DNA of 18,674 nucleotides, from the NCBI GenBank assembly GCA_938004315.1, contig CALKWG010000446.1:1-18674 (forward strand), in the 5' to 3' direction. Position 1 is the stretch's first letter. Each line of letters starts with the position of its first letter. Both the position numbers and the translations under genes were made by a program. This DNA comes from an uncultured Spirochaetaceae bacterium (GTDB lineage Bacteria > Spirochaetota > Spirochaetia > Treponematales > UBA12059). Positions 15,811 through 18,674 of this stretch are shown piece after piece. The notes under the pieces were generated by a model. The model saw nothing but the letters and a program-made list of their open reading frames with translations, did not search any database and had not been told where the DNA came from.

Positions 15811-15966
15811 CGGACGGGTGACCCCCGAAGACGCGCGGCTATGACGCCGCGCCTCGCGCGGGGGCAAGAGGGGGAATCCGGTGAGAAGCCGGAGCTAGCC
15901 CGTAACTGTATGCGGAGCCGAGGCCGAGAGCCCTAGGACCGCGAGCCAGGATACCCTGCCCGTCCG
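15811..15966 (+). promoter_or_regulatory. Cobalamin (adenosylcobalamin) riboswitch aptamer
   Basis: The conserved core is clear: GGGGGAATCCGGTGAGAAGC (about 15870-15889) closes as a TCCGG/CCGGA hairpin. It is followed by GGAGCTAGCCCGTAACTGT (15891-15909) and the B12 box AGCCAGGATACCCTGCC (15944-15960). P1 is a perfect 8-bp helix, CGGACGGG (15811-15818) with CCCGTCCG (15959-15966). Peripheral hairpins include GCGCGGC/GCCGCGC (15833-15839 and 15846-15852) and GCGG/CCGC (15912-15915 and 15939-15942). An extra stem upstream (CGTAG 15771-15775 with CTACG 15808-15812; CGAACG 15779-15784 with CGTTCG 15800-15805) abuts P1 and shares two bases with it. It controls the B12 uptake genes that follow, normally switching them off when the coenzyme is abundant. 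Confidence 0.93.
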
Positions 15967-16113
15967 ATAAGTCGCATTGGAACGCTTCGTGGTACAGGCG
16001 TCGAGCGACCGACCGGACGGCCCCTCTTTCGGGGTCCGCGCGGCCCGTCATTCGCAATCCAACCAGAACCGTTCCTCCTGCCGCTCCCCGCGGCATACCT
16101 AAGGAGGACGTCC
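15967..16113 (+). promoter_or_regulatory. Riboswitch expression platform with Shine-Dalgarno-hiding hairpin
   Basis: This gene-free leader holds mutually exclusive pairings. CGGACGG at 16014-16020 repeats the 5' P1 strand and can pair with 15960-15966 instead of it. The same bases could also pair, via GACGG, with CCGTC at 16045-16049, enclosing a CCCC/GGGG hairpin (16021-16034). At the end, TCCTCC (16073-16078) pairs with GGAGGA (16103-16108), the Shine-Dalgarno core. It encloses a perfect TGCCGC/GCGGCA stem (16079-16084 and 16090-16095). No U-tract is present, so control of translation initiation, not of termination, is the likely mechanism. Confidence 0.65.
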
Positions 16114-17016
16114 ATGAGTAGGACGAAGATCTTCGTAGCGGCGGCCCTGTTCGCCGCCCTCGCCTTGGCCACGGCTTCGGCCCAAGCCGTGAGCTTCACC
16201 GACGCGCGCGGCCAGACCCTGCGCCTGCCGGGCAAGGCCGTCCGTGTCGTATCGCTCTCGCCCGCCCTGACCGAGATACTCTACGCCGCCGGCGGCGGCA
16301 AGGCGGCGGTCGGCGTCACCAGCTACTGCAACTTCCCCGCCGAGGCCGACGCCCTGCCTGAGATCGGCGGCTATTCACCGAACACGATCAGCGTCGAGGC
16401 CATCGTCGCGCTTCGCCCCGACCTCGTCATCGGCGAGCTGTCGGCCCACGGCCGCCTGGCCGAGCAGCTGGCCGCCGCGGGGCTGCGCTTCGCCGCCTTC
16501 AACCTGCGCGACTTCAACGCGATCTACGAGGCGATGCTCCAGCTCGGGAGCGTCGCCGGCGACGGTTCGGTCGCCCTGCGGCAGGTGAACGCGATCAAGG
16601 CCAGGCTCGCCGCCGTCGCCGTTACGATAGCCGGCGTCCCCGCCTCGGCCCGCCCGCTCGTCTTCTGGGAAGTCTGGGACGAGCCCTTGATGACCGCCGG
16701 CCCGAACACCTTCATCGCTCAGGTGCTCGCCGCCGCCGGCGCGCGCCACGCCTTCGCCGACGTCACGCAGGATTGGCCGGTGATTAGCTTCGAGGACATC
16801 GTCATGCGGAAGCCCGACCTGATTATGGCCTCCGATACGCACGGCGTAGCGCTCAGCCCCGAGAAGCTGGCGGCGCGGCCCGGTTGGTCCAGCCTGGCGG
16901 CCGTGCGGGATCGGCGCATCGTCCTCTTGAACGGCGATATCGTCTCCAGGCCCGGCCCCCGCTTCATCGAGGCGGTGGAGCTCGCGGCCAAGGCCCTCTA
17001 TCCGGACCGCTTCTAG
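16114..17016 (+). CDS. btuF: Vitamin B12 ABC transporter, periplasmic binding protein (BtuF-like)
   Basis: The 300-residue protein has a classical signal peptide (TKIFVAAALFAALALATASA, cut near residue 23-25) and no lipobox cysteine, so it is probably a soluble periplasmic protein. The two-lobed class III binding fold is visible: RVVSLSPALTEILYAAG in lobe 1, GVTSYCNFP, ISVEAIVALRPDLVIG, then WEVWDEPLMTAGPNTFI, SFEDIVMRKPDLIMASD and a C-terminal SRPGPRFIEAVE. It captures cobalamin or corrinoids and hands them to BtuC. The cobalamin riboswitch upstream makes B12, not heme or siderophore, the likely ligand. The ATG follows AAGGAGG by 6 bases. Its TAG stop overlaps the btuC GTG by one base. Confidence 0.88.
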   Translation: MSRTKIFVAAALFAALALATASAQAVSFTDARGQTLRLPGKAVRVVSLSPALTEILYAAGGGKAAVGVTSYCNFPAEADALPEIGGYSPNTISVEAIVALRPDLVIGELSAHGRLAEQLAAAGLRFAAFNLRDFNAIYEAMLQLGSVAGDGSVALRQVNAIKARLAAVAVTIAGVPASARPLVFWEVWDEPLMTAGPNTFIAQVLAAAGARHAFADVTQDWPVISFEDIVMRKPDLIMASDTHGVALSPEKLAARPGWSSLAAVRDRRIVLLNGDIVSRPGPRFIEAVELAAKALYPDRF

Positions 17017-18083
17017 TGATCCTTCGGGGGGGTAAGCCGGCGCGGCGCGCCGACGCCGCGCGCGGCGAGGCGGCCGGGCGCGCCGCGGCGTTCATCCTCA
17101 TCGCCTCGGCCGCGGCGGCGGCCTTCGTCTTGGCCGTCGGCATGGGCGCGGTGACTATCGCGCCGCCGGCGGTCCTGGACGCGCTCTGGGGACTGGCGAC
17201 GCGCCGGGAAGCCGAGCCGGCGCAGGTGATCGTAGGCCTACGCCTGACCCGCGCCCTCATGGCGGCGGCCGTCGGCGCGTCGCTGGCGTCGTCAGGGGCG
17301 GCCCTGCAGGGGCTCTTTAGGAACCCCTTGGCCGACCCCTACGTAATCGGGAGCTCGAGCGGAGCGGCCCTGGGCGCGGTCATCGCGATGACCCTGGGCG
17401 CGGGCCCCGCATTCTTCGGCTTCTCCCCCATCGGCTTCGCCGCTTTCCTCGGCGGGCTCGGGGCGACCCTCCTGGTCTACCTCGTCGCCGGCGCCTCGCG
17501 CGTCCGCCGCGACGCCGCCAGCCTGCTCCTGGCCGGCTCGGCCTTAAGCTCGCTTATATCGGCCTGCGTCTCCGTCATCCTGGCGCTCAAGGATAAGGAC
17601 CTGCATCAGGCCTGGTTCTGGCTGCTCGGCGGCTTCTCCGGGCGCGGGCTTCCGCAGCTCGGGGCGGCCGCCCTGGGCATGGCCGTCGGCTTCATCGCCC
17701 TGATGTCCGGGAGCAGGGCCTTGGATCTGCTATCGGCCGGCGACGAGGAGGCGCGGAGCCTCGGCCTCTCGCCGACTAAGGCTAGGCTGGCCCTGGGCGG
17801 CGCCGCGGCGCTGGCCGTCTCCTCCTCGGTCTCCGTGGCCGGGGCCATAGGCTTCGTGGGCCTCGTGTCCCCGCATTTGGCTAGGCGCTTCGTCGGCCCG
17901 TCGCACCGCGCGCTCCTGCCGGCTTCGGCCTTGCTCGGGGCCGCCATGCTGCTCTTGGCGGACGCCGTGTCGAGGACCGCCTTCGCTCCGATAGAAATGC
18001 CGGTCGGCGCGGTGACCGCTCTCATCGGCGGGCCGTTCTTCCTCTATAAGATAGCCAGGCGCGGGCTGGAGGCGGGGCGATGA
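17016..18083 (+). CDS. btuC: Vitamin B12 ABC transporter permease (BtuC-like, FecCD family)
   Basis: This is a 355-residue inner-membrane permease of the FecCD/BtuC family with about 10 membrane helices. Signatures are GLRLTRALMAAAVGASLA, LQGLFRNPLADPYVIGSSSG, the coupling region LDLLSAGDEEARSLGLSP, and GAIGFVGLVSPHLARR near the C-terminus. The frame is open upstream inside btuF, but the extra residues are a Pro/Arg-rich out-of-frame shadow. The GTG at 17016 overlaps the btuF stop (TAGTG), keeps the usual family length and leaves a short polar N-terminus before the first helix, so I chose it. The stop overlaps the btuD start as ATGA. It forms the pore through which B12 enters the cytoplasm with BtuD. 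Confidence 0.9.
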   Translation: MILRGGKPARRADAARGEAAGRAAAFILIASAAAAAFVLAVGMGAVTIAPPAVLDALWGLATRREAEPAQVIVGLRLTRALMAAAVGASLASSGAALQGLFRNPLADPYVIGSSSGAALGAVIAMTLGAGPAFFGFSPIGFAAFLGGLGATLLVYLVAGASRVRRDAASLLLAGSALSSLISACVSVILALKDKDLHQAWFWLLGGFSGRGLPQLGAAALGMAVGFIALMSGSRALDLLSAGDEEARSLGLSPTKARLALGGAAALAVSSSVSVAGAIGFVGLVSPHLARRFVGPSHRALLPASALLGAAMLLLADAVSRTAFAPIEMPVGAVTALIGGPFFLYKIARRGLEAGR

Positions 18084-18628
18084 AGTCCGTCCGTATACTC
18101 GAGGCGAGCGTCATCGCCGCGGCCGGCGACGCGGGCGCGACGCCCCCGCCCCCCGAGGCCCGAGCGGCCGGCGCGAGCGAGGCCCTGCTCTCAGTCAAGG
18201 ACCTTGACGCCGGCTATAGGGCCGACCGCGGCCTCGGCGTCCCCCGCCGCGTCGTCGTCTCGGGCGCGTCGTTCGAGCTTAGGTCCGGCCGCCTCCTCGC
18301 CCTGCTCGGCGCGAACGGCTCGGGTAAGACCACGCTCCTAAAAACCTGCGTGGGGCTCCTCCCGTCCCTGGGCGGCCAAGCGTCGATAGATTACCGCCCG
18401 GTCGGGCGCATGGGGCCGCGGCATTTGGCTCGTCTCGTGGCTTGGGTGCCCCAGCAGACCGAGCCGGCCTGGTCGTATACCGCCCGGGAGCTCGTGGCCC
18501 AGGCGCGTTACGCCCTGCTCGGGCCGTTCAAGCCCTTCGGGGCCGAGGACGACGAGGCCGTGGACGCGGCCCTCGAGGCCATGGACGCCCGCCCGCTGGC
18601 CGACCGGACCTTCGGCACACTCTCGGGC
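18080..18628 (+). CDS. btuD: Vitamin B12 ABC transporter ATP-binding protein, C-terminus missing (BtuD-like)
   Basis: The first 183 codons are real. An unusual polar, proline-containing N-terminal extension of about 35 residues precedes the ABC domain (LLSVKDLDAGY). Walker A is GANGSGKT (77-84) and the Q-loop is AWVPQQTEPAW (121-131). The family's helical domain then runs to FGTLSG (178-183), the start of the LSGG signature. There the genomic sequence ends: the next base, 18629, is the first of an Illumina adapter. Walker B, D-loop and switch His are therefore missing by assembly artefact, not by mutation. Codons after 18628 (RSEEHTSELQ...) are adapter-derived and should not be counted. The start is by ATGA overlap with btuC. 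This subunit powers B12 import from the cytoplasmic face. Confidence 0.9.
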
Positions 18629-18674
18629 AGATCGGAAGAGCACACGTCTGAACTCCAGTCACCGAATACGATCT
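18629..18674 (+). other. Illumina TruSeq adapter with index (not genomic)
   Basis: From 18629 the sequence reads AGATCGGAAGAGCACACGTC and continues through 18662 as the standard TruSeq read-1 3' adapter. CGAATACG (18663-18670) then occupies the 8-base i7 index position, and ATCT (18671-18674) begins the following constant part. The match is exact over the whole constant part. This is untrimmed read-through at the contig end. Confidence 0.98.

Follow-up and report, generated by a model that had tools for sequence, protein, structure and literature searches.

An untrimmed TruSeq adapter at the end of a spirochaetal contig, fused to a cut btuD-like gene

The stretch analysed here (the window, 18,674 nucleotides from an uncultured Spirochaetaceae bacterium) runs out inside a reading frame that is open to the contig end, and the question is whether its last codons belong to the organism or to the sequencing library. 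We regard it as virtually certain that the final 46 bases are untrimmed adapter and not genomic DNA; the route by which they were joined to the contig is less certain.

As shown in Table 1, the non-genomic stretch (18629-18674) is made up of TruSeq adapter, an index slot and ATCT, and the composition proposed by the first-pass annotation (adapter, 8-base index, start of the next constant block) was borne out base by base. The exact 34-base read-1-side adapter lies at the contig end, points outward on the + strand, and is followed by eight index bases and by the post-index block (ATCTCGTATGCC...), four bases of which are present before the contig terminates at 18674, inside the adapter block. 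All the fixed adapter bases were matched (38/38). The index slot is placed just as in 94 stretches of viral_contigs (IMG/VR) that contain the adapter, eight bases and ATCT. The adapter core and most of the read-1-side extension are also printed in PMC11536531.

Table 1. Features of the window, with positions counted from its first base
Feature	Positions	Strand	Evidence or remark
MobB-family gene, cut by the contig end	3-173	-	PF03205, E 1.4e-10
TPR-repeat protein, 951 aa	6263-9118	+	
Cobalamin riboswitch, upstream of the operon	15838-15971	+	RF00174, 53.5 bits vs gathering score 31.5
Periplasmic binding protein, btuF-like	16114-17016	+	PF01497, E 4.3e-35
FecCD-family permease, btuC-like	17001-18083	+	PF01032, E 1.7e-86; 17001 is the start of the searched frame rather than a mapped start codon
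btuD-like ABC-transporter ATPase gene, 5' part, 183 codons	18080-18628	+	Pfam ABC_tran (PF00005), residues 62-183; alignment; motifs
Chimeric ORF, 198 aa (183 genomic + 15 adapter codons, RSEEHTSELQSPNTI)	18080-18673	+	Open to the contig end
Spurious antisense ORF, 101 aa	18338-18643	-	Start codon inside the adapter
Illumina TruSeq read-1-side adapter, 34 bases	18629-18662	+	Non-genomic; identity 34/34
Index slot, 8 bases, CGAATACG	18663-18670	+	Non-genomic; flanked by both constant blocks
ATCT, first four bases of the post-index constant block	18671-18674	+	Non-genomic; identity 4/4

With both strands of the window counted, chance would give an exact match to the 34-mer about 2e-17 times (69% GC, independent bases). 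The 13-base adapter core has one exact copy in the window. With up to three mismatches it gave three matches in total, the other two each differing at three bases, where shuffles would lead one to expect 8.5; loose matches of this kind therefore carry no information, and the weight lies on the long exact one. Base composition changes at the junction as well (GC 0.50 in the last 46 bases vs 0.74 in the preceding 500). A search of the window for Nextera and read-2-side adapters returned nothing beyond the core common to both TruSeq sides, and adapter sought at the contig's other end was absent there. That other end also cuts a gene, of the MobB family, after 57 codons.

The genomic sequence ends at 18628, inside the btuD-like ATPase gene. 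Its genomic part contains Walker A (GANGSGKT from residue 77) and the Q-loop (VPQQ from residue 123), stops after the LSG of the ABC signature, and lacks the LDEP of Walker B. At 18629-18631, where relatives encode the second glycine of the signature, the window has the codon AGA, i.e., the first three bases of the adapter. The location of the cut, inside the signature motif and right after LSG, had been called in the first-pass annotation, and the relatives, which carry LSGG at this point, agree with it.

Among 514 relatives of the ATPase, the best 120 were compared, and 19 of these 120 were used for the alignment, in which L, S and G are invariant at the cut point (19/19) and the H-loop is visible. 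The closest relative among those listed, P0001 (317 aa; 80% identical across 92% of the query), has GEARRILIARALAQ after the cut point and reads GGEARRILIARALAQ where the window has GRSEEHTSELQ, the first G being common to both. An exact LSGG was found in 110 of the 120 listed relatives; in nine of the remaining ten a different residue precedes SGG, and the tenth, P0106, has LSSGE. At the DNA level, 70 genome_contigs loci were compared and the 15 that are spirochaetal by title, including one titled Rectinema subterraneum (L109) that we presume to be a spirochaete, were examined for the signature. The second glycine of LSGG was present in 15/15: nine closer loci (L095-L103) have LSGG(E/Q)ARR, together with LDEP, and six more distant ones (L108-L113) have LSGGQFQR. 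The 13-base adapter core was absent from both strands of all 70 loci.

These comparisons bear on whether the 46 bases could be genuine genomic DNA, with a BtuD that truly ends in RSEEHTSELQSPNTI. The frame does stay open through the tail, as such a protein would require; yet the tail exactly matches a synthetic oligonucleotide, at the chance expectation given above, a genuine tail would destroy the ABC signature and omit Walker B, and both the aligned relatives and the spirochaete loci are uniform at this site. We consider this reading so improbable as to be negligible. Nothing further came up in favour of genuine DNA. A limit of the adapter reading is that the continuation past 18628 is visible in relatives only, the best of which among the genomes searched has 61% protein identity. 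In the organism, the bacterial gene presumably continues normally past 18628.

The same relatives make an uncultured spirochaete the probable source of the contig. The nine best of the 70 genome_contigs loci (L095-L103) are titled Spirochaetes, Spirochaetae, Spirochaetales or Spirochaetota, and the close protein relatives P0013, P0024 and P0025, among those listed, are spirochaetal by name; a further close protein relative (P0009, 58%), named as a Clostridia MAG, counts against a spirochaetal affinity. In the class of G002, 6/394 genomes matched at E 1e-30 or better, with a best protein identity of 61%. These 394 genomes are an even sample of a larger group, with eight candidates scored per genome, and the window's species was not found among them.

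None of the 15 adapter codons closes the frame, and a gene caller tolerant of open ends could therefore report a chimera of 198 aa, ending in LSG-RSEEHTSELQSPNTI. On the opposite strand, the adapter supplies the start codon of an antisense ORF (GTG, read as CAC on the + strand). The first-pass annotation had anticipated an in-frame tail reaching the contig end, a possible chimeric protein and a spurious antisense ORF; the frame was found as described, and the chimeric and antisense products were confirmed as mechanical ORFs. The tail peptide RSEEHTSELQ had no match in the literature search.

Upstream of the cut gene, the ATPase has a cobalamin-linked operon context, made up of the RF00174 riboswitch and the btuF-like and btuC-like genes. 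Together these resemble an unremarkable operon for vitamin-B12 uptake, of the btuFCD type, and the adapter tail at the contig end makes this operon appear to stop there. For each of the three operon proteins the best NCBIfam model stays below its cut-off. The btuF-like protein scored 105.3 bits against the BtuF model (cut-off 234) and reached the broad subfamily TroA_like (NF038402; 63.5 vs 30), and the btuC-like permease scored 229.7 bits against the best BtuC model, PRK09535 (cut-off 461). The truncated ATPase scored at best 85.4 bits vs a cut-off of 537 (PRK09536), and 36.3 bits vs 281 with the BtuD model PRK03695, a test that the truncation makes weak; it reached none of the cut-offs among the best 25 of 106 families. 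The names btuF, btuC and btuD are thus used at the family level, because the best NCBIfam models fall below their cut-offs. The gene name btuD, given in the first-pass annotation, accordingly holds in part: the operon and the riboswitch speak for it, whereas no NCBIfam cut-off among those 25 families supports it. Like BtuD/FhuC-type ABC ATPases, the gene product has Walker A and the Q-loop, and the gene takes the last place in a btuF-btuC-btuD order with a cobalamin riboswitch upstream; it differs from them in having 183 genomic codons only, cut after LSG.

Elsewhere in the window, the C-terminal part of the TPR-repeat protein is long, acidic and proline-rich.

As to how adapter came to be the contig terminus, we infer a read-through. 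In the most likely course of events, the insert stopped at 18628 and was shorter than the read. The read would then have continued into the A-tail, the adapter, the index and the first bases of the block behind it, and its end would have been retained by the assembler as the end of the contig. A-tailing is a step of library preparation chemistry, to which the A at 18629 would correspond.

The 94 IMG/VR stretches with adapter, eight bases and ATCT give a measure of how such tails end. In 45/94 the stretch ends within or at the end of the post-index block; 34/94 pass through the whole block into other bases, 15 of them into A only and 19 into other sequence; and a further 15 have other sequence behind an incomplete block, which makes 34/94 with other sequence in all. 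A contig ending inside the adapter is therefore usual, not absolute. Three of the 94 are exceptions in another respect: in L029 the adapter points inward, and in L054 and L092 it lies over 500 bases away from the contig end; these three are possibly chimeric joins. Such internal or inward adapters lend some credit to a different origin of the tail, in which the adapter was joined by chimeric ligation or an adapter-dimer event, an artefact too that differs in route only. The outward orientation, the index and next block in correct order and the stop inside the adapter are nevertheless what a plain read-through would leave, and we judge the ligation or dimer route to be quite unlikely. The adapter 34-mer read backwards, used as a control, was absent from IMG/VR. 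We also considered whether the tail is 46 bases long because the assembler works with words of a fixed length. This idea is not supported, as tails vary within one index, from 46 to 50 bases in the six IMG/VR stretches that share TCCGCGAA.

The tail has ample precedent: adapter left at the ends of contigs is an artefact that is widespread and already documented in print, without biological interest. Moeller et al. 2024 report that 1,110/15,657 MGnify species assemblies are adapter-enriched at p<0.01, with about 157 expected, and that enrichment in published assemblies is concentrated at contig ends (PMC11536531). The present tail resembles the contamination described in that paper in having the same 12-base core and read-1-side extension, forward at the contig 3' end. 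Nothing of substance sets it apart; in the window the index is retained too, as are four bases of the block that follows it. In our own comparison, the 34-mer occurred in 4/394 genomes of one relative's class, and 4/4 reach the contig end (40-72 bases); the reversed 34-mer gave 0 among the matches listed for the 394 genomes.

The meaning of the finding is one of data quality only. Trimming of the contig at 18628 is called for; the 198-aa protein needs a flag as partial and the removal of its 15 C-terminal residues, and the antisense ORF should not be kept.

It had also been suggested that the library might be identified from the index, a side claim that does not compete with the readings above. 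The 8-base slot can indeed be read, and we suspect that CGAATACG belongs to a commercial unique-dual-index set. Indexes of this length come from kit sets that are reused across many runs and laboratories, and they name a well, not a sample. The adapter with index CGAATACG occurred in no other contig of viral_contigs and genome_contigs. Literature matches for the octamer were unrelated by title among those listed, and for CACCGAATACGATCT, in which the octamer stands between flanking adapter bases, the literature search gave no match. The index is at most a weak hint, and there is little chance that it traces the library or the sample.

Adapter-derived residues can also be found at protein level. 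When both adapter sides, translated in their three outward frames, were compared with the C-termini of the 120 listed ATPase relatives, 2/120 showed adapter-like residues; the inward frames of both sides gave 0/120. It is very probable that protein databases repeatedly contain C-termini derived from adapter, which within a single family look like a short conserved tail, and a systematic census of them could remove many false termini. Both of the proteins found here come from ENA contigs: P0015 ends in IGRAHV, which is what the same adapter encodes in its third frame before the stop, and P0005 ends in IGRASWRERV, which shares 9/10 residues with a frame of the read-2 side.
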